NCBI GenBank assembly: GCA_009377665.1
Contig: WHTO01000008.1
Coordinates: 1-36,515 of the forward strand
Source of the DNA: Dehalococcoidia bacterium
GTDB lineage: Bacteria; Chloroflexota; Dehalococcoidia; WHTO01
DNA: 36,515 nt
Direction of reading: 5' to 3'
The translations under genes were made by a program, and so were the position numbers. The notes beneath the pieces are model-generated. The model was not told the origin of the DNA, did no database searches, and worked only from the letters and a program-made list of their open reading frames with translations. Positions 22,105 to 33,782 of the stretch are shown here, piece by piece. The first letter of the stretch is position 1. Every line of letters starts with the position of its first letter.

Positions 22105-25098
22105 ATGAGCTCATTCGCCAGACGCAGATACCTCAGACGGACGCGCCACGTTCATCAGCGCGGCAACGGCCACACGCCCCTGGCGTTGTACGCCGGCCTC
22201 GCCCTGCTGGCGCTGGCGAGCGCCGCGGCGCTTGCCGGGGTGGCCGTCGCGGCTTCGATCTACGCGGGGTACGCGGACGACTATCGGGACCCGCATGAAT
22301 TCATCGAGGAGCGCAGCAAGGGCGGAGCCCGCATTTTCGCCGACGATGGCACGCTGCTGTTCCAATACGCTGACCCCAACGAGGGTCTGCGCAACCCGGT
22401 TGCGCTGGACCAGATCTCGCAGCACCTGATCGACGCCACGATCTCGACCGAGGACAACTCGTTCTACGACAACCCGGGGATCAACGTCGAGGGGCTGATG
22501 CGGGCAGCGTGGGAGAACTCGGGCCTGGGTGACAGCCCCGGGTTCCTGGAAGGCAGCGGCGGCAGCTCGATAACGCAGCAGCTCATCAAGCAGCTTTACT
22601 TCACCGATCGCGACCCGGACACCGGCGAGCTGACGGTCAACTTCGAGAACCGTTCGTACGACCGCAAGGCAAAGGAAACCGTCCTCGCCCTCGAGATGAA
22701 CGAGAGGCTTGAGAAGGATGAGATCCTCGAGCTTTATCTGAACACGATTTACTACGGGAACCAGTTCTACGGCGTCCAGGCGGCGGCCGAGGGCTACTTC
22801 GACAAGAGCGCCGCCGACCTGACGCTGGGCGAGGCGGCGATCCTGGCCGGCCTGCCGAACGACCCCAACGTCAACAACCCGATCCAGCGCTATGACAGCG
22901 TTGGCACCCCACTGCCGGGCCCGGTCAACGCCAAGGCGCGCCAGGAAGCCATCCTGGACCTGATGGCCGAGCACGGCTACATCACCCTGGCTGAAGCCGA
23001 GGCTGCCAAGAACGAGCAGTACGCGTTGCTGGAGAGCCGCACGGGCGGCATCATCGAGCGCATCCAGGAAGTGCAGCTCAAGCCTGAGCTGACGAACTCC
23101 TTCCACTTCGTCAAGAACTATCTGCCGACGGTGATTGAGAACATGTGCCGCTCGGGCAGGCTGGCCCTGCCCGACGACGTGGCCTGCACGCAGGACGAGG
23201 CGGCGGAGCAGGGGAAGGCGCCGTTGATCGTCAGGCAGGGGGCCAGCGAGGGCGGTGGGGTCTTCATCCTGGGCGGCCTGCGGGTCACGATCTCGCTGGA
23301 CTCGGCGCTGCAGCTGCAGGCTGAGGAGATGGTCAGGCGCTGGTCGGAGGAGTTCGAGCAAACGCTCGGCGCGAACAACGCCGCGCTGGCGGCAATCGAG
23401 CCGGCAACAGGGCGGATACTCGCCTACGTGGGCAGCCGCGACTTCCGGGCGACCAGCGACATCTTCGGCAATCCGATCACGGACAGCCAGGGCAGGCGGA
23501 TCGACGGCGAAGTCGACATCCTGCAGAGCGCGCAGTCGCCGGGATCGACGTTCAAGTTGTTCACGTACGCAGCGGCGTTTGAGCAGGGCTCGGCCGAGTT
23601 CGAGCATTGGAGTCCCGGCACCACGGTCTTCGACTACCCGCTGCGCATTCCCCTGCCGGGGACAACCTGCAACGGCGAGGCGGGGATCTACTGTCCGACG
23701 AACTCGGGCGGCGGCAGCAGCAGCAGCCGGGTCACCGTGCGCGACGCGCTCCGCAGGTCGATGAACATCCCGGCGGTCTACACGTCCTACCAGGTCGGCG
23801 TGCCGCAGGTGATGTCTACCGCGCACCGGCTGGGGCTGACGGAGCTGTCGAGCGGGATCCTCATCACCTATGGCGATAGCGGTCTCCCCGACGAGCAGGT
23901 CGAGGGCACCTGCGTCAACAGAAACGAGGCAGGGGTCTGTGTTGCCGAGCATCGCTCGATCCAGGACGCCTGCAACTACTCGCTGACGCTGGGCGGCTGC
24001 GAAGTGCGGCCCTTCGACATGGCTTATGCGGCGTCGGTCTACGCGAACAACGGGGTGATGGCGGGGATTCCGAGCTACTTCGACTGGTCGGACCTGACGA
24101 CCACGTGCTCTGACAACGTCACCATCTGCGAGACGTCCCCCGATACGCGCAGGCCGCTGGATCCGGTGGCCGTAACGCACATCGAGGACGCCGAAGGCCA
24201 GGTGCTCTTTGACTTCGTGGAGCCCACGCTGCAGCAGGTCATCGGTCCGCAGTTCACCTACATGGTCAGCGATGTGCTGACGCTCCCGACGGGCACCATC
24301 AGCTTTGAGATCGACGGGCAGCAGGGTGCCGTCTACGGCAAGACGGGCACCAAAGAAGACAACAGCGGCCTCTGCGCTGGCTGCACCACGGACACCTGGG
24401 TGGTCGGCTACTCCAGCCAGGTAGCCCTCGCGGTGTGGGTCGGCAATACGGGGAACCAGGGATTCTCGGGTGACGCGTTCGGCTCCAATACGGCCGGGAA
24501 GATATTCCAGGAGTTCATGAGCGTCTTCCACCAGGGCAAGCCCAACCAGCCGATCCCAAGACCAGACGGTCTGACCGAAGGCAGCGCCGGCGGCCCCTGC
24601 ATGCTGAACGCCACCGACCTGATGGTGGTCGGCAGCGGAGGCAACTCCGAGGCCGTCGCGGAGGGGGAGACGCCATTCTGTCAGAGGGCGACGATCGACA
24701 TCCGGAACGAACTGCTGGCTACGGACTGCGTACCCGAGGAGTACCGCGACGAGCGGGAATACCTGAACATCCCGGGCGGCATAGTCGTTGGTGGGTCCAG
24801 TGGACAGCCACCGACTGAGGAGAGTCCCCTGTGCGCGGACGACGAGGACGGCCTTCCCTTCTTCATCGTCGCCGACCCTACGGGTGACTTCGATCGCGAT
24901 GGCGTACCGAACTACGTGGACAATTGTCCCCTTGTGCCCAACAGCAATCAGATAGACACCAACAACGACGGAGAGGGCAACGCCTGCAGCGGACCGGACG
25001 ATGATGATGGTGATGATCGCGACGGCGACGATAACGACGACGATGACGATGACGACGGTGGGTTCAGCCTCTTCCCCACACCCTCCTCGGATGACTGA
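22105..25098 (+). CDS. Class A penicillin-binding protein (GT51 + transpeptidase) with C-terminal thrombospondin type 3-like repeat and Asp-rich tail
   Basis: GT51: STEDNSFYDNPGINVEGLMRA, GGSSITQQLIKQLYF; transpeptidase SPGSTFKLFTY (SxxK), RSMNIPAV (SxN), YGKTGTKEDN (KTG). Tail DFDRDGVPNYVDNCPLVPNSNQIDTNNDGEGNACSGPDDDDGDDRDGDDNDDDDDDDGG. Confidence 0.93.
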   Translation: MSSFARRRYLRRTRHVHQRGNGHTPLALYAGLALLALASAAALAGVAVAASIYAGYADDYRDPHEFIEERSKGGARIFADDGTLLFQYADPNEGLRNPVALDQISQHLIDATISTEDNSFYDNPGINVEGLMRAAWENSGLGDSPGFLEGSGGSSITQQLIKQLYFTDRDPDTGELTVNFENRSYDRKAKETVLALEMNERLEKDEILELYLNTIYYGNQFYGVQAAAEGYFDKSAADLTLGEAAILAGLPNDPNVNNPIQRYDSVGTPLPGPVNAKARQEAILDLMAEHGYITLAEAEAAKNEQYALLESRTGGIIERIQEVQLKPELTNSFHFVKNYLPTVIENMCRSGRLALPDDVACTQDEAAEQGKAPLIVRQGASEGGGVFILGGLRVTISLDSALQLQAEEMVRRWSEEFEQTLGANNAALAAIEPATGRILAYVGSRDFRATSDIFGNPITDSQGRRIDGEVDILQSAQSPGSTFKLFTYAAAFEQGSAEFEHWSPGTTVFDYPLRIPLPGTTCNGEAGIYCPTNSGGGSSSSRVTVRDALRRSMNIPAVYTSYQVGVPQVMSTAHRLGLTELSSGILITYGDSGLPDEQVEGTCVNRNEAGVCVAEHRSIQDACNYSLTLGGCEVRPFDMAYAASVYANNGVMAGIPSYFDWSDLTTTCSDNVTICETSPDTRRPLDPVAVTHIEDAEGQVLFDFVEPTLQQVIGPQFTYMVSDVLTLPTGTISFEIDGQQGAVYGKTGTKEDNSGLCAGCTTDTWVVGYSSQVALAVWVGNTGNQGFSGDAFGSNTAGKIFQEFMSVFHQGKPNQPIPRPDGLTEGSAGGPCMLNATDLMVVGSGGNSEAVAEGETPFCQRATIDIRNELLATDCVPEEYRDEREYLNIPGGIVVGGSSGQPPTEESPLCADDEDGLPFFIVADPTGDFDRDGVPNYVDNCPLVPNSNQIDTNNDGEGNACSGPDDDDGDDRDGDDNDDDDDDDGGFSLFPTPSSDD

Positions 25099-25128: not shown

Positions 25129-25842
25129 TTGAACCAGGCGCGTCGCTGGCTCTCTTCGGCAATCGCGTCGCTCGGAGCGCAGTCCCCTCTGCAGACCATC
25201 TCGATGATGGCCGCGCTTGGGATTGGGGCCCTGGCGATGGTGGCGATCGTCATCCAGCTCGTCGACCAGGGAGCGGACGAGTTCCAGGTGTCGGTGGCGG
25301 CAACGCCACCTGTGGTGGAAACCGAGGAAGCCGAGCTTACGCCGACGCCCGAGGCCACGCCCACTGAGACACCCCCGATCGTCGCAACCTTCACCCCAAT
25401 CAGCGAGGCGCCGATCAGCCGCATGGTCATAGCGCTTGCTTCCGTTGACCACGCCGTGGTCGCGCTGCCGCTGCCGGCAGATGGAGTCCTCTCGGCCACC
25501 GAGGAACCGGGAGTGATAGCCTACTACGACTTCAGTGCGCGGCCCGGCGACACGACAGGCAACGCCCTCTTCGGTGGCTCAGCCGACGGTGTGCAGGACG
25601 GCGTGTTCGCCAACCTTCCAGCGCTGAGCCGCGGGGACCAGATCGTCATCGAGCTTGAGGATGGCGCCGCCTACAGCTACGAGGTGTTCTCCGTCGCCGC
25701 GCTTGGAGGGGGGCCCGTCGATCCCTCCGACGCAGGATGCGCCGAGCCGGGCTGTCCTGGGCTGGGCACGCTGACCTTGATCGGATTCAACTCGTCCGGG
25801 AGCGGACATACGCTCGTCAGGGGCCAGCTGAGCCCGGGCTGA
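25129..25842 (+). CDS. Membrane-anchored degenerate sortase-like (class E/F-like) protein lacking recognisable catalytic His/Cys
   Basis: N-terminal TM, Thr/Pro linker, then VALPLPADGVLSATEEPGVIAYYDFSARPGDTTGNALFGGSADGVQDGVFANLPALSRGDQIVIELEDGAAYSYEVFSV...LGTLTLIGFNSSGSGHTLVRGQL, which follows the sortase E/F layout. Confidence 0.65.
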   Translation: MNQARRWLSSAIASLGAQSPLQTISMMAALGIGALAMVAIVIQLVDQGADEFQVSVAATPPVVETEEAELTPTPEATPTETPPIVATFTPISEAPISRMVIALASVDHAVVALPLPADGVLSATEEPGVIAYYDFSARPGDTTGNALFGGSADGVQDGVFANLPALSRGDQIVIELEDGAAYSYEVFSVAALGGGPVDPSDAGCAEPGCPGLGTLTLIGFNSSGSGHTLVRGQLSPG

Positions 25843-25855
25843 TCTCTAGCGGAGG

Positions 25856-27421
25856 CTAGGTGTCGTCGTCGTCGTTGTGGAGTTCCTGCAACGCCGCGCG
25901 GGCAAGCGCATCAAGCTCGTCAACCAGCAGGCTGAGCTCTTCAATCGCCTGCGCTACCGGCTCCGAGACGCTGCCGACCCGGGTGAGCTGTGTTGACTCC
26001 GTGGCAGTCGACAGCAGCACGCCGCGGACGAAGTCCCCGTCTGACGCCCCGTCATCGGACTCGAGGAGCGCGATGAGGTTGTTGAGGCTTACGGCGTACT
26101 GGTTCAACAGCGCGATGGTGACCGCCTCGGGAGGGGCCTGCGCGAGGTCCTCCACGAGAGCGTTGTGACTCTCCAGCAGTTCCATGCGGGCGGCCGCAGG
26201 TGTGGCGGCGCCTTCATCCGGCGTTGGCGTCGCGGTCGGCTCGTCGGTCGGCTCGTCGGTCGGCCCGGGTGTCACGCTGGCGGTGGGCTCAGGGGTGCCC
26301 GTGGGGTCTATCTCAGGGTCGGGGTCTTGCACGACTTCGTCGTCTGAGGGCGTGACAGTTACGACACCAAGCTGCTCCTGGCTGGCCTCGATGGCGACTC
26401 GCGTGTTCTCGACAAGGGCCTGGTCTTCGGCGGCCACCAGCGGCCCGGCTGCCTCGATCGCCTGGGCGGCCTGCCGCGAGAGCGTGTAGGCGACCGCGAA
26501 CTCGTCGGCGGACTGAATGGCATTGGTGCTCAACTGTTCGTTCAAGTCCTGGGCGCCGGCGGCGAGGTCTTCCAGTTCCTGCCGCGATGGTGCCCGGTTC
26601 TCGATCACGGCGAACTGGACGCGCTCGACGCTCCCGCGCACACGGGCTAGTACCTCGTTGCGCGCGGTGACTTCGTCGACCCGGAAGGAGCTTGCTTCGT
26701 CGGATGGGGGAACATCGCCAACCTGCGGGCCGGGGCCCGAGGGGCCGTCAGAATCGCCGGCGTAGGACTGGAAGAGCAGGAAGCTAAGAACGAAGGCGGC
26801 GGCCACGCCGCTCGTCAGCGGAGCCGCCCATTGAAGGTGTCGCATGAAGCCACCACTGCCGGCGGTCTCCGCGGCCAGTGGCGCGGTCTGCGGTTCGCGG
26901 GTAGCCCTGAGTACGCGCCAGCGCACACCAGAGACGCGCTGCTCGAGGGGCAGTGAAGAGTATTCGTAGCGAAGCTGCTGCGCGAGCATGAGCAGGGGAG
27001 CCATTCGATCGGCATCCCTGGGGAACTGCTGCAGGCAGTCATTAACGCTGGCTCTGCCGCCGACGACTGCTTCGATCGAGGCGTTCAAGCTGCGCTCGAA
27101 GCTCCCTTCACGCGCTGTTATGAAGGCCAGGGCGCGGGAGAGCAATGGCGGCCTCGATGCCGCTTCGGCGACCGGCTCGCGGGCGGCGTCCACGGCCATC
27201 TGCCGGTAGTGGGCGTACTTCTCGGCGCGGGGTTCGACCGAGAAAACATGCTCGAGGGCGCCGGCAATGCTCTGTTTCTTGTTCATCTCGCGGACTTCAG
27301 CAAGCACCTGGGCGCGAATCGCCACCTGCCGGAACGGATCCGGCTCGACGGCGAAGGTTTCGGCCAGGGTGTCTTCGAGCCCGGCCATGACCTGGTCGTC
27401 CCTGTCGTGGAGAATCGACAT
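25856..27421 (-). CDS. Membrane protein with DUF5667-like extracytoplasmic region; probable ECF anti-sigma/partner protein
   Basis: Directly downstream of and overlapping an ECF sigma gene (ATGA); one central TM (PLTSGVAAAFVLSFLLF), extracellular helical region and Thr/Pro-rich segment. Confidence 0.7.
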   Translation of the reverse strand: MSILHDRDDQVMAGLEDTLAETFAVEPDPFRQVAIRAQVLAEVREMNKKQSIAGALEHVFSVEPRAEKYAHYRQMAVDAAREPVAEAASRPPLLSRALAFITAREGSFERSLNASIEAVVGGRASVNDCLQQFPRDADRMAPLLMLAQQLRYEYSSLPLEQRVSGVRWRVLRATREPQTAPLAAETAGSGGFMRHLQWAAPLTSGVAAAFVLSFLLFQSYAGDSDGPSGPGPQVGDVPPSDEASSFRVDEVTARNEVLARVRGSVERVQFAVIENRAPSRQELEDLAAGAQDLNEQLSTNAIQSADEFAVAYTLSRQAAQAIEAAGPLVAAEDQALVENTRVAIEASQEQLGVVTVTPSDDEVVQDPDPEIDPTGTPEPTASVTPGPTDEPTDEPTATPTPDEGAATPAAARMELLESHNALVEDLAQAPPEAVTIALLNQYAVSLNNLIALLESDDGASDGDFVRGVLLSTATESTQLTRVGSVSEPVAQAIEELSLLVDELDALARAALQELHNDDDDT

Positions 27422-28005
27422 CAGCCGACGCCTCCCATTGAGGGCTCCCAGGCGAACTGCTTGGCCAGTATCTTCTGCAGGTTCTTCAATGCCTTGAACT
27501 GGAGGACGCGGACGTTGGATTCGCTCTTACCCAACGCCTGGGCTATCTGAGCGGATTCAAGCCCACCGGCGAAGCGCAGGGCGATAATCTCGCGCTGGGC
27601 GTCGGGCAGGAAGCGAGTGGCTTCCTGCACCATCAGCCGCAACTCCGAACGATCGATGTCATTGCGTCCTTCGACCAACTCCGCCGCGTCGAGATCGACC
27701 CCTTGCCTGTGCGCGGGATTTTTCCGGACGTGGTTGACGACTTCATTGCGAACGATGCGGAATAGCCAGGCTTCGAAGCCGCTCTCCTGCCACCTGAAGG
27801 TGCGGATAGCTCGAACGACCTTGAGAAATGCTTCTCCAGCGATGTCCTCCGCGTCATGCGTATTCCCTGTGCGGGCGTAGACGAAGCGGAAGACCCGGAG
27901 GAAGTAGCGGTCGTAGAGCTCACCGATAGCTTCGTCATTTCCGGTCCTGGCGCTTTCGACCAGCTCGCGCAGGTCGCTTTCAGAGGCTTGCAATAGATCC
28001 GGCAT
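27421..28005 (-). CDS. ECF-type RNA polymerase sigma factor
   Basis: ELYDRYFLRVFRFVYARTGNTHDAEDIAGEAFLKVVRAIRTFRWQESGFEAWLFRIVRNEVVNHVRK...FLPDAQREIIALRFAGGLESAQIAQALGKSESNVRVLQFKALKNLQKIL. Confidence 0.93.
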   Translation of the reverse strand: MPDLLQASESDLRELVESARTGNDEAIGELYDRYFLRVFRFVYARTGNTHDAEDIAGEAFLKVVRAIRTFRWQESGFEAWLFRIVRNEVVNHVRKNPAHRQGVDLDAAELVEGRNDIDRSELRLMVQEATRFLPDAQREIIALRFAGGLESAQIAQALGKSESNVRVLQFKALKNLQKILAKQFAWEPSMGGVG

Positions 28006-28282: not shown

Positions 28283-29623
28283 TTGGAGACGACTGGGACG
28301 AGCCCCGAGGAGGTCGGTGGCAGCGCCAGCGGCGCGCCCGAAACGGCGACGCCAGGGTGGCTCTCGCTGGTCCAACCCGCTGTCCAGGTGGCCGTCATCA
28401 TCGCGGCCCTGGTCGCGCTCGTCATGTGGCTGCCGGATACGCTCGACAGCTGGGACAACGAGCTGGAGAGCGACTTCCCGAACTTCAATGGGGCGGCGCT
28501 CCTCGTCCGCGAGGGCCTGGGGGGTCAACTCTACGCCGAGCGGCCCGACTTCGGCGACCGAGAGCTTCGGGAGTATTGCGACATCGCGCAGCCGGGGGCC
28601 AGCGCGGGAGGCGGTGGCCCACATTTCGCCTGCCGTGCGCTCCTCGGCAACTTCCGCAGCCCGCCCAGCCTGATCGTCGCCTACCTCCCGATCTCGTTCC
28701 TCCCAGGCGACACTCCATATCACGTCTCGTTCGCGCTCTGCGCCATGGGGGCGCTGGCGCTGGCGGCGCTGCCGCTCAGGCACCTCCAGAGCCGCCTCTC
28801 CCAGGCGGCGTTCTTCCTGGGGGTGTTGTCGCTGCCGATCCTGCAGCTTTCGGTGCGCCTGTCTCAGCCTTCCGTTCTCTACGCGTTGGCCGCCTACGGC
28901 GGCTTCATGCTGAACGCCCGGGGGCAGCCTGCGCTGGCTGGAGCGGCTTTCGCCGTGCTCAGCTTCAAGCCTCAGTTCCTTATCCTGCCGCTCGCGTTCC
29001 TTTGCTACACGAGGGCGTGGGCGACCGCGGCCTGGACCGCGGGGGTCAGCGGAGCGTTGTTGATCACGGGCGCGGCGCTCGTCGGGCCGGAGGCAGTCGG
29101 GAACTATGTCGATCTGAACCTGGAGCTGCTTGAGCGCGGGCCGGTCGCGCTGCAGCAGGCGTGGATGTACAACTGGGAGGGTTTCCTGAGGGTGCTCACG
29201 GGTGGGCCACAGCAGCTGATCGCCCGTCTCCTGGGACTGGCCACCCTGGTCGTCCTCGTCAGTCTCTGGGTGCGGAGGCCGGACATCGCGCCGGCCGCGT
29301 CGATCGCGGCTTCGGTGCTGGCTATGCCGTACGCCCTCTTCTACGACTGGACGCTGCTGGCGGCGGCGGCGGGGCTGGCCGTCGCGGCCCTGGCCGTGCC
29401 GCAGGAGCGCGCGTTTGCGGGGGGGCTGATGGTGATGGTGTGGGCGGCGATCTGGGCGACGCAGCCGTCGCTACCGCTATTCGGTACGGGCGGCACGACG
29501 CTGCCCGACGGAACGATCTATTGGTCCACGCTGTCGCTGGCCTTGGCGTTGATCCTGGCTCTCGCCTCCTACGCACCGGGGGTAGCTCGAACGTTTAACG
29601 CGTCTGCAACCCTCCGCCGTTAA
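28283..29623 (+). CDS. GT87-like (DUF2029) polyprenol-dependent mannosyltransferase-type membrane glycosyltransferase; TTG start likely
   Basis: Multi-TM protein with GT87-like blocks (DFPNFNGAALLVREG near N-term; FAVLSFKPQFLILPLAFL; GNYVDLNLELLERGPVALQQAWMYNWEGFLRVL). Confidence 0.75.
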   Translation: METTGTSPEEVGGSASGAPETATPGWLSLVQPAVQVAVIIAALVALVMWLPDTLDSWDNELESDFPNFNGAALLVREGLGGQLYAERPDFGDRELREYCDIAQPGASAGGGGPHFACRALLGNFRSPPSLIVAYLPISFLPGDTPYHVSFALCAMGALALAALPLRHLQSRLSQAAFFLGVLSLPILQLSVRLSQPSVLYALAAYGGFMLNARGQPALAGAAFAVLSFKPQFLILPLAFLCYTRAWATAAWTAGVSGALLITGAALVGPEAVGNYVDLNLELLERGPVALQQAWMYNWEGFLRVLTGGPQQLIARLLGLATLVVLVSLWVRRPDIAPAASIAASVLAMPYALFYDWTLLAAAAGLAVAALAVPQERAFAGGLMVMVWAAIWATQPSLPLFGTGGTTLPDGTIYWSTLSLALALILALASYAPGVARTFNASATLRR

Positions 29624-29770: not shown

Positions 29771-30910
29771 GTGTCATTTATCAACAAGTGGTCAATGGGA
29801 GCGATTGCGGCGCTGGCAGGCGCCGTTGTAGCTCTCGCGGCCTTTAGCCCGAGCGCGCAGGCCGGCGATGTCGGCGAGGCGTTCGAAGAGGGCGACATCG
29901 ATTGCGTCAAGGACGCGTTTTACGAGGGCCCGGCGATCGAGCTGGGCGACGAAGTCGCGTTCGAGGTGACGTGTACGGTGGACGCGTTCGCCGTTAAGTT
30001 CGGCACCGTCACGCTTTCGGACGCCCTCGTGATCATCGATGTCCTTCCCGACAACTTCATCATTGAGAGCGCAGCGTGCCTGTCAACCGACCCGGCTGAG
30101 CCCGATATCACGGGCAACCTGGTCGACATCGATGGGCAGCAGGTAACTTGTTCGTGGATTCCTTCAGCGGAAGGATTCACCTACACACTCGAGGTAGAGG
30201 GCACCTTCCTTGAGGGGCCCTGCGGCGACCTGAAGAACGAAGCTGAGGCTTCTTTCGGCGGAGACTTCGAGACTCCGGCGGTCTTCCTGTTCGTCGAGTG
30301 CGAGAACCTGGCTGTGACTAAGGCGGCAACGACCGCCACCGACGGGACGGGCGCGACAGTCCGCCCGGGCGGCACGATCGTGTACACGGTCGAGGTCTGC
30401 AACGAGGCCACCGGCTTCGGCGAGGCCGAGAACGTGTTCGTGGTGGACCAGCTTCCGCTGGGTGCCGAGTTTGAGAGTGCGGCTTCTCCGGACTTCGACC
30501 TCGTGGTCGAGGGCAGCGAGATCACGGGCACGAAGCAGAGCCTTCAGCCCGGCGCGTGTGGTGCGATCTTCATCACCGTGAACACCGCGAACGACGCTCC
30601 GTGCGGATTCCAGTTCACTAACGTGGCGGTTACCGGCACTTTGACCGGGAACACGCTGGACGCCGACGACAGCGACAACACCGCCAGCGTCACGACGACC
30701 GTCGTGTGCGCCGACGCCGACGACGACGGCGACCACCACGACGGCGACCGGCCGGGCGGTGGTGGCGGCGGCGGTGGGCCGTCGGTCAGCACCGGCGACT
30801 CGGGCCTGGCCCAGTCGAGCGCGGTAGCCGGCTGGCAGCTGGGTCTCCTCAGCCTGCTGATGGTGAGCAGCCTGTCGGTTGCCTACCTCGGCTACAACCG
30901 GATGCGCTAG
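29771..30910 (+). CDS. Secreted DUF11-repeat surface protein with C-terminal TM/basic tail, GTG start
   Basis: Signal peptide MSFINKWSMGAIAALAGAVVALAAFSPSAQA; DUF11-like ENLAVTKAATTATDGTGATVRPGGTIVYTVEVCNEATGFGEAENVFVVDQLPLGAEF; C-terminus GGGGGGGPSVSTGDSGLAQSS-TM-YNRMR. Confidence 0.85.
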   Translation: MSFINKWSMGAIAALAGAVVALAAFSPSAQAGDVGEAFEEGDIDCVKDAFYEGPAIELGDEVAFEVTCTVDAFAVKFGTVTLSDALVIIDVLPDNFIIESAACLSTDPAEPDITGNLVDIDGQQVTCSWIPSAEGFTYTLEVEGTFLEGPCGDLKNEAEASFGGDFETPAVFLFVECENLAVTKAATTATDGTGATVRPGGTIVYTVEVCNEATGFGEAENVFVVDQLPLGAEFESAASPDFDLVVEGSEITGTKQSLQPGACGAIFITVNTANDAPCGFQFTNVAVTGTLTGNTLDADDSDNTASVTTTVVCADADDDGDHHDGDRPGGGGGGGGPSVSTGDSGLAQSSAVAGWQLGLLSLLMVSSLSVAYLGYNRMR

Positions 30911-30937: not shown

Positions 30938-30969
30938 GAGGAGGGAGGGCGAATTTGTCCTCCCTCCTC
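30938..30969 (+). terminator. Intrinsic hairpin after the DUF11 surface protein gene
   Basis: GAGGAGGGAGG-(10 nt)-CCTCCCTCCTC, 11-bp perfect stem. Confidence 0.65.
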
Positions 30970-31029
30970 CTTATTGCCACGTCCGGCCTATACTCAAACC
31001 ACTTCGGCTCTTGAGACGCCACCAAAAAC

Positions 31030-33243
31030 ATGGCTCGTGCTGACCCGCGCACATCGTTCCCCAAGAGTCTTTCGCACTACAGACTCTCCAGCCTGATCGA
31101 CACAGGCACGATCGGTTCGGTGTACCTCGGTGTCGACCGGCGCGACCAGACGCCGGTCGCGATCAAGCTGATCAACCAGCAGTTCGCGCGAGACAGGACG
31201 TTCCGCGAACGCTTCGAAATCGAGTGGCGGCTCGCCGCCCAGTTGCGTTCGCCGTACAGCGCGCGCGTGTTCGAGGGCGGCTACCGAGACGGTTACTACT
31301 ACATCGCGATGGAGCACGTCGAGGGTAAGACGCTTGCCCAGACTCTTGCCGAGCGAGGGCCATTGCCCCCGCGACGAGCGGCCCGCATCGCGTCTCACGC
31401 CGCGCGTGCGCTGGAGGAGGCTGAAACCTACCGCGTTGTGCACGGTGGCCTCAAACCGGAGAACATGATCATCCTGCCCGCCGGACGCTCCGCGAAGCTG
31501 GTGGACTTTGGGATCGCGGCGTGGTCGAAGGCAGCATCCATTACGCAACCCGGCGGCGTCCTCAGTGGCATGCTTTACGCCGCGCCGGAGCAGGCCCGGG
31601 GCCGAGCCGACCATCGCAGCGACATCTACTCGCTGGGCGCGGTGCTCTATCACATGATCGCCGGCAGGCCGCCGCTGGATGGTGGCGCCATGGAGCTGGC
31701 GACCCGTCCCGGCGCCACGATCGATATGGCGCCGTTCGAGGGCCTCCCGCCGGCGCTGAGCGACGTGGTGGAGCGTTGCCTCCAGCGAGACCCCCGCAGC
31801 CGTTACCCGAGCGCGACGGACCTGGCGGGCGCGCTCGACCACGCGGGCCGGGAGATCGCGTCCGTGACCTCGCTGCCGCCAGGCGCGCCGCCCGAGCCCG
31901 AAGAGGCGCACGCCGAAGCGCCCGCGGAGCCCGAAGCGGTCGCCATGACGCTCGCAGAAACCGCCAGCGAAGACAGCCCGGACGATAGCGAGAGTCCCGC
32001 CGTGGAGCACGCAGCGACTGCCCCCCTGGTCGATGAACCAGTGGTCTTCGAGGACATCTTCGAAGAGGTTGTGCCGATAACGCCGGAGGAACCGGCGGAC
32101 GCCTCGTGGGTGGACGACCAGGGGCTCGACACCGTCACGCGCGGCGAGCCCTCTTTCGCCCGCCACGAGGAGGCCGGCACCAGCGACGAAGCGAGCGAAA
32201 CCATCCTCGCTGATGAAGACGTTCCATCGGCAGGCGTCGAGCTGGCAGCGGGCGACACGCTGATCCCCGAGGACGAGCACATTTCGGAGCTGCCGGCGAC
32301 AACCATCGGCGAACCTCGAGCTCGGCGCGAGTCGCCGCCGGAGGAGGCGACAGCCCCCCCGCCACCGACACGCCCGTTGGAGCCTGTTCCAGCCCCGCCC
32401 TCCGAGAGCCCCGCGGCGCCCGCCACGCGGGCGCGTGGAGGCTCGCTCCGCGACCTGGCTCCGCTGTTGGGTGCGATCGCCCTGGCGATAGTTGCCCTCG
32501 GCGTCGGAGGCTTTCTCGTGCTTGGTCGGGACCCAGGCGGCGGGGAGAATGACGGCGGCCAGGGAGCCGCCTCGGCTGAGACCACGCTCGGCGCGGGCGA
32601 GGTCGGAGCGACCGAAGACGCCTCGGAAGCCACGGCAGAGGCGCCCGAGGCCACCGCGGAGCCGGGTGGACCCATCGCCCCGGCTCTGCCGTTCGCCGAC
32701 GACTTCAACGATCAGGACCCGAACTGGGACGTCGAGCCGCAGGACGAGTACACGAGCTATGCCAATGGCGGCCTTGTGGTATCGGCGGATCCTGGCCTCA
32801 CGAGCAGCGTGCGCAGCACGACGGTGGGACTATCCGAGCTGGGTGACGTTTTCATCGAAGTGGACGTGGTGAAGCTCAACGGTCCGACCGACACCGAGAT
32901 AGGTCTGCTCTGCCGGGCAGACCTTGGCCCCAACCTCTACCACTTCCTGATCCGGCCCTCTGACGGCTTCTTCCGGGTCGTGAAGCAGAGCGGAGAAGAT
33001 CCGCAGTTCGAGGTGCTGGCGGAGGGTACGAACGCTGCGATCACTGACCTCAACCACATAGTCGCGGGATGCGTCGGCGCAGGCGATGCGGGCGTCAGCC
33101 TGACGCTGAACGTCAACGATCAGGAGGTTGCCCGGGTCGACGATCCGGCAGGCCATGCGCCGGGGGCGGTCGGCGTCGAGGTTGTCTCTTTCGGGCTGGC
33201 GGCGCAGGTGCTTTTCGACAACCTGGTGATCAGGGAGCCATAG
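31030..33243 (+). CDS. Ser/Thr protein kinase-like (PknB family) single-pass receptor with HGG catalytic loop (putative pseudokinase) and extracellular jelly-roll-like domain
   Basis: VAIKLI (Lys), VVHGGLKPENMI (HRD->HGG), KLVDFGIA (DFG), SGMLYAAPEQARG, RSDIYSLGAVLYHMIAGRPP; TM LAPLLGAIALAIVALGVGGFLVLG; C-terminal FADDFNDQDPNWDV...FDNLVIREP domain. Confidence 0.9.
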   Translation: MARADPRTSFPKSLSHYRLSSLIDTGTIGSVYLGVDRRDQTPVAIKLINQQFARDRTFRERFEIEWRLAAQLRSPYSARVFEGGYRDGYYYIAMEHVEGKTLAQTLAERGPLPPRRAARIASHAARALEEAETYRVVHGGLKPENMIILPAGRSAKLVDFGIAAWSKAASITQPGGVLSGMLYAAPEQARGRADHRSDIYSLGAVLYHMIAGRPPLDGGAMELATRPGATIDMAPFEGLPPALSDVVERCLQRDPRSRYPSATDLAGALDHAGREIASVTSLPPGAPPEPEEAHAEAPAEPEAVAMTLAETASEDSPDDSESPAVEHAATAPLVDEPVVFEDIFEEVVPITPEEPADASWVDDQGLDTVTRGEPSFARHEEAGTSDEASETILADEDVPSAGVELAAGDTLIPEDEHISELPATTIGEPRARRESPPEEATAPPPPTRPLEPVPAPPSESPAAPATRARGGSLRDLAPLLGAIALAIVALGVGGFLVLGRDPGGGENDGGQGAASAETTLGAGEVGATEDASEATAEAPEATAEPGGPIAPALPFADDFNDQDPNWDVEPQDEYTSYANGGLVVSADPGLTSSVRSTTVGLSELGDVFIEVDVVKLNGPTDTEIGLLCRADLGPNLYHFLIRPSDGFFRVVKQSGEDPQFEVLAEGTNAAITDLNHIVAGCVGAGDAGVSLTLNVNDQEVARVDDPAGHAPGAVGVEVVSFGLAAQVLFDNLVIREP

Positions 33244-33296: not shown

Positions 33297-33782
33297 GTGG
33301 AAAAGAAGACATGGACGTTGCTGCTGAGCGTAGTTGCACTGCTCGCTTCGGCTGTATACGCGGCGCCGGCTTCGGCCGGACAGCCCCCGGGGGGTCCCCC
33401 CGCAGAAGAGCTACCGGACCGCCCGACGCCGCCTTCGGCGCCGGATCGTGCCTGTGAGAACGTAGACTGCTCAATCGGCGTACCGTCTTTCAGCGGCGAT
33501 GTCGAAGCAGCCATGGAGCAAGCAAGCGGCTCCGAGGCCAGTGAGAACGTGGCTGCGCCGGACTACTCCGACAAGACGCAGCTGCCTGCGGTACCCGATG
33601 CCCAGCGAGTTGTCGGCACTTCGCGCACGGTCACCGGTGGTGACCCGTCCATCGCGGCCGGCGATTCAGGCCTTGCTGCGGCCGGCGGCGGCCCGGTAGG
33701 AACGATCGAGATGGCGGCCCTTGCGGCGTTGATGCTGGTCGCCAGCGGCGCCGGCGTCTTCGCCTACCGTCGCATCCGCTAG
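33297..33782 (+). CDS. Small secreted surface protein with C-terminal TM/basic tail (GTG start)
   Basis: Signal peptide VEKKTWTLLLSVVALLASAVYAAPASA; C-terminus DPSIAAGDSGLAAAGGGPVGTIEMAALAALMLVASGAGVFAYRRIR. Upstream TATACT and GGAGG. Confidence 0.75.
   Translation: MEKKTWTLLLSVVALLASAVYAAPASAGQPPGGPPAEELPDRPTPPSAPDRACENVDCSIGVPSFSGDVEAAMEQASGSEASENVAAPDYSDKTQLPAVPDAQRVVGTSRTVTGGDPSIAAGDSGLAAAGGGPVGTIEMAALAALMLVASGAGVFAYRRIR

Follow-up and report, generated by a model that had tools for sequence, protein, structure and literature searches.

The gene at positions 31030..33243 (plus strand) is best read, on the support of its sequence, as encoding a single-pass receptor pseudokinase of 737 amino acids. 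It lies in the window, which is the whole 36,515-nucleotide stretch of Dehalococcoidia DNA analysed here, and its source is one draft MAG of 269 contigs that is 86% complete. Judged from the alignment with homologues, the residues for phosphotransfer are gone from the kinase domain and the residues for nucleotide binding are kept. From the N- to the C-terminus, the protein consists of a PknB-like kinase domain, an acidic/Pro linker, one transmembrane (TM) helix and a C-terminal beta ectodomain. The gene was delimited with the list of open reading frames, Pfam and the GC content at the three codon positions (0.73/0.52/0.80). When the DNA was re-read, the reading frame and the position of the catalytic-loop His codon (31441-31443) given by the first-pass annotation were both exact. 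That annotation had proposed a candidate pseudokinase, and the proposal is supported by the HRD motif of the homologues and of a paralogue in the same genome, by the loss of the Thr in the P+1 loop and by the PknB-like predicted fold.

The kinase domain and its altered motifs

The kinase fold extends from about residue 17 to 266 (31078..31827, plus strand) and was recognised by Pfam, phmmer, AlphaFold2 and Foldseek. PF00069 (Pkinase) matches residues 18-259 with an E value of 6.9e-32 and is the only kinase domain that Pfam recognises in the protein. With phmmer, Mtb PknB was matched at E 7e-41, and the matches among solved structures also included PknE, PknA and StkP. AlphaFold2 was run with a six-row alignment and gave a pLDDT of 83 for the kinase domain and a pTM of 0.84, with low confidence for residues 163-175 of the activation loop. 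The comparison with PknB structures, proposed earlier as a check, was then carried out with this model, and the best PDB match in Foldseek was Mtb PknB itself (6i2p, E 2.1e-22, TM score 0.78-0.81). Sequence, tree and predicted fold all place the domain in the PknB-like clade.

The catalytic loop reads HGGLKPEN, where homologues have HRD. The codons CAC GGT GGC (31441..31449, plus strand) encode HGG at residues 138-140, so that both the Arg and the catalytic Asp are replaced by Gly, as seen in the DNA, in the alignment and by pattern search. A pseudokinase is defined by the absence of at least one of the VAIK Lys, the HRD Asp and the DFG Asp, and here the position of the HRD Asp is taken by Gly140. 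The VAIK motif with the beta3 Lys46 (31156..31167), the LKPEN motif with the catalytic-loop Lys142 and the Mg-binding Asn145 (31450..31464) and the DFG motif at residues 159-161 (31504..31512) are intact, all on the plus strand. The alignment with homologues therefore confirmed the earlier claim that HGG stands in place of HRD with VAIK, LKPEN and DFG preserved. Glu65 of alphaC, P186-E187 of the APE motif and the alphaF Asp198 were also kept, and the activation loop is of normal length.

Three further regions of the domain are altered. The Gly-rich loop IDTGTIGSVYLG (31096..31131, plus strand) had been called atypical; this holds for its first Gly, which is replaced by Asp (G24D), and not for the second and third, which are retained. 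In alphaC (31210..31242, plus strand), R64, A66, H67 and L71, which are invariant elsewhere in the clade, are changed to I, W, R and Q. In the P+1 loop, the conserved GT at residues 179-180 is changed to SG (31564..31569, plus strand). Two of these changes might make nucleotide binding weaker, namely G24D and the Trp at position 66, which adjoins the alphaC Glu. The first-pass annotation had mentioned neither the missing P+1 Thr nor the altered alphaC residues, nor the paralogue with HRD.

The loss of the catalytic aspartate among related kinases

A set of 393 genomes from the same class supplied the homologues. All of the 23 nearest kinases have the catalytic Asp, in HRD or in one case HKD, and the genome's own paralogue (on contig C199, with 47% identity) keeps it in the loop HRDIKPDN. 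Among the 40 columns that are invariant in these 23 kinases, our protein departs at nine: G24D, R64I, A66W, H67R, L71Q, D140G, F177V, G179S and T205V. When each of the other rows was left out in turn, the departures numbered 0.7 on average and at most six, the latter in a row cut by the end of its locus. The nine changes are located in the Gly loop, alphaC, the catalytic loop, the P+1 loop and alphaF. In the tree, the protein is nested in a clade with 100/98 support in which the other sampled members all bear the Asp, and its end branch is the longest of the clade (1.21 versus at most 0.78 for the others).

The change of HRD to HGG requires two base changes, in adjacent codons. Since two substitutions are needed and the P+1 Thr and several alphaC positions are changed as well, an isolated base-call error is unlikely. 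With HRD in the homologues and in the paralogue of the same genome, the absence of the Asp has the appearance of a genuine change in this lineage. A full-length scan of genome contigs, with this genome the only one of its order, found only distant kinases and no orthologue; the HRD proteins recovered were paralogues or distant homologues with at most 48% identity. According to a review, a change of HRD to HGX is a convergent signature of pseudokinases, as the Arg is replaced by Gly in 19 of about 50 human pseudokinases versus 8 of about 500 active kinases (PMC4718504).

Sampled kinases without the Asp tend to lack the P+1 Thr as well. Of 44 Asp-bearing kinases, 43 have a Thr or Ser at this P+1 position, compared with three of the eight Asp-less ones (Fisher P 1.2e-4); since the rows, like those of the tree, are related and two of the eight Asp-less sequences are near-copies, this association is supportive rather than a formal test. 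We also considered the residues R10 and L33 (PknB numbering) of the back-to-back dimer of Mtb PknB as evidence on dimerisation. The whole clade differs from PknB at these sites, with HYR and DRRD in their place, so that their conservation speaks neither for nor against dimerisation.

Of 400 genomes of the phylum searched with a DNA pattern for H-G-G-x-K-P-[D/E]-N, this one alone gave a match. A search of the class for H[R/G]G gave HRG matches that were not kinases, and the other recognisable kinase-like matches were HGG[IV]KPHN domains in which DFI replaces DFG. These domains recur in several class genomes, at the N-terminal end of very large proteins. They appear by their motifs to be a separate group from our protein and likely represent another pseudokinase family. 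The alignment contained further kinase-like proteins without the Asp, with HRN, HSN, HWA and HGS loops. One is a second TM pseudokinase of the same genome (L005 on contig C238, 467 residues), which has HWAFGPDR, no DFG, one TM helix and an outer part that by eye resembles SH3b. Another, the 715-residue PknB-like TM protein L017, has HRNLTPEN, in which Asn replaces the Asp and Thr replaces the catalytic-loop Lys, and it lacks the P+1 Thr; its motifs make it a candidate for an independent receptor pseudokinase. On the tree, six changes account for the seven Asp-less rows, at least three of them forced by well-supported branches, which indicates that the Asp was lost repeatedly.

The membrane anchor, the outer module and the neighbouring genes

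The kinase domain is followed by a low-complexity acidic/Pro linker (31876..32439, plus strand) with a net charge of -38 over residues 280-470, and by one TM helix at residues 479-497 (32464..32520, plus strand) recognised by hydropathy, as the long linker and single TM segment of the earlier reading had it. The extracytoplasmic C-terminal domain of about 190 residues, at residues 550-737 (32677..33240, plus strand), was assigned through the profile of its relatives as a probable ConA-like module of the CBM66/PF06439 type. Such relatives occur in 15 of the 393 class genomes, on at least seven kinases with HRD and on at least three TM proteins that have no kinase domain. The profile of 22 members matches the levanase structures 4azz, 4b1l and 4b1m with E values of about 1e-8 (best 1.6e-8), and PF06439 matches 20 of the 22. 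The module in these levanase structures is known as CBM66. Our ectodomain taken alone has no match in Pfam, and its single-sequence model is weak (pLDDT 51.6), so that the Foldseek matches of this model are not meaningful. The jelly-roll-like ectodomain proposed earlier thus stands at the level of the profile and not for the single sequence. The module is present in one copy in this genome. Its distribution and profile point to a portable ConA-like module, which is plausibly glycan-binding.

With both halves of the protein described, early gene decay can be weighed. A pseudogene forming in one lineage, with no present function, would be consistent with a singleton among the sampled genomes, with the longest branch of the clade and with the extra departures at invariant sites. 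However, the frame of 737 codons is intact, the third codon positions of the kinase part have a GC content of 0.82, and all 13 invariant or nearly invariant positions of the ectodomain are kept. The losses are on the catalytic and substrate face, whereas the core structural residues are kept. We consider decay unlikely.

Upstream in the window lie a class A PBP (22105-25098), a sortase-domain protein (25129-25842), an ECF sigma factor (27421-28005, minus strand), a GT87 protein (28283-29623) and a DUF11 protein (29771-30910). The DUF11 protein ends in a GDSGLA motif, a TM helix and a basic tail (30794-30910). The gene downstream of the pseudokinase (33297-33782, with a probable GTG start at 33297) encodes a secreted protein with the same kind of tail (33660-33782) and is followed by a methylmalonyl-CoA mutase gene on the minus strand. 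Both neighbours thus carry the tail, as had been noted for the two surface proteins that flank the gene. The sortase-domain protein is encoded about 5-8 kb upstream of these two proteins. No third GDSGLA tail turned up when the genome was searched with a degenerate DNA pattern, so the motif may be a sorting signal reserved for this sortase. On the minus strand at 25856-28005, the ECF sigma gene is followed by that of a 521-residue protein with a Pro/Thr/Asp-rich stretch, a hydrophobic segment and no Pfam match, which is possibly the anti-sigma partner. Between the DUF11 gene and the pseudokinase gene there is a strong hairpin with a 14-bp stem (30938..30970, plus strand; -28.5 kcal/mol, z -5.05). 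It has no canonical U-tract and was not called in a separate search, and it is only suggestive of a possible transcription boundary between the two genes.

The same genome encodes kinases with HRD or HCD motifs, six FHA matches and one PP2C phosphatase, so that possible partners of a pseudokinase exist. No kinase gene is adjacent to the pseudokinase gene, and none of the possible partners is linked to it by position.

Proposed mechanism and comparison with known systems

We consider it probable that the protein is a membrane receptor pseudokinase that has lost phosphotransfer, has kept its nucleotide and Mg contacts and works through an active kinase with which it pairs. Sequence and tree support its derivation from active PknB-like receptor kinases. 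The outer ConA-like module would bind a glycan or another surface ligand. The motifs suggest that bound nucleotide could hold the domain in a closed, active-like state without normal phosphotransfer. The pairing would run through the kinase fold, and the most plausible active partner is the HRD paralogue on C199. In such a pair our protein would serve as an allosteric activator, as a dominant-negative brake or as a phosphorylated docking platform for FHA proteins. This proposal is modelled on PknB, for which ligand-driven dimerisation of the kinase domain is the prevailing hypothesis of activation (PMC6428115), and on MviN, where a bacterial pseudokinase domain is used as a docking site for FHA (PMC12599244). 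A narrower version is more doubtful: the protein might be an ATP-binding co-receptor of the HER3 type, evolved independently in bacteria, in which the glycan-sensing ectodomain drives hetero-pairing and thereby the allosteric control of the PknB-like paralogue.

A weak but genuine kinase that tolerates the loss of the Asp, with slow phosphotransfer supported by Lys142, Asn145 and DFG, appears quite improbable. Every nucleotide and Mg contact is kept, some Asp-less kinases retain weak activity or transfer other groups, and the plant pseudokinase ILK1 is reported to be kinase-active (PMC9403797). Against this, our protein also lacks the P+1 Thr and the Arg of HRD, which removes substrate positioning and the coupling to the activation loop, and there is no clear acidic substitute nearby, as the position of the LKPEN Glu is occupied by Asp, Glu, Ser, Gln or Ala in HRD kinases. 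A pocket repurposed for another ATP-dependent transfer is very unlikely. SelO (AMPylation) and SidJ (glutamylation) likewise keep the Lys and a DFG-type Asp with HRD lost (Table 1, PMC12599244), but no SelO or SidJ model in Pfam or NCBIfam matched at E values up to 1, and both sequence and fold make the domain an ordinary relative of PknB. An error of sequencing or assembly in the HRD codons would be conceivable in a single draft genome, but with two substitutions in adjacent codons and independent P+1, alphaC and Gly-loop changes that agree with a loss of catalysis, it is least likely of all.

The receptor pseudokinase that we favour resembles the PASTA kinases PknB, StkP and PrkC (NF033483) in its N-terminal PknB-type kinase domain, its single TM helix and its outer sensor domain. 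Unlike these, it has no catalytic Asp, HRD Arg, P+1 Thr or PASTA domain; the NF033483 model reached 214.5 bits versus a cut-off of 450, over the kinase part only, and Pfam found no PASTA. The ectodomain resembles the C-terminal CBM66/PF06439 module of levanase through the profile of its relatives, but is joined to a kinase and not to a glycosidase. Among eukaryotes, the plant atypical RLKs and HER3 are receptor pseudokinases of the HGx/HxN type. They too are single-pass receptors with an ectodomain and a nucleotide-competent-looking fold without the catalytic Asp, whereas their ectodomains are different and our protein would have evolved on its own from PknB-like kinases.

Pseudokinases of bacteria have received very little study, and in most of the catalogued families ATP binding has been lost as well. 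A PknB-type receptor without its phosphotransfer residues and an HRD paralogue in the same genome make a clean pair for testing pseudoreceptors as co-receptors in bacteria. Bacterial TM pseudokinases are already known, namely EssB/YukC, MviN, ActPs2 and GLW. MviN of M. tuberculosis and EssB/YukC are likewise anchored in the membrane, as scaffolds or docking platforms, but all three of their motifs are degraded and their domain contexts are different; ATP is not bound by MviN, whereas our protein appears from its sequence to have intact nucleotide contacts. A review lists seven families, ActPs1-3, GLW, CP1, DYD and DLHK, of which five are divergent in all three motifs and DYD and DLHK in the ATP and metal motifs (PMC12599244). 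As in these families, our protein has a kinase fold that lacks a residue of the triad, and several of them also have a TM helix after the kinase domain. They are, however, described as diverged in the VAIK Lys, the DFG or both, whereas in our protein the HRD Asp is the one residue of the triad that is missing, and the kinases around it look active. ActPs2 has also lost the HRD Asp, to Asn, together with a change of the beta3 Lys to Arg and a deletion of DFG; here the Asp is changed to Gly, with VAIK and DFG intact. ActPs3/MviN has three degraded motifs and a deletion in the activation loop, as opposed to the loss of HRD only and a loop of normal length. The loss of the Asp alone, with VAIK and DFG intact, fits none of the seven families as they are described. 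As a singleton the protein is hence not yet a family, and it adds to the known kind of bacterial receptor pseudokinase with an uncommon pattern of retained residues.
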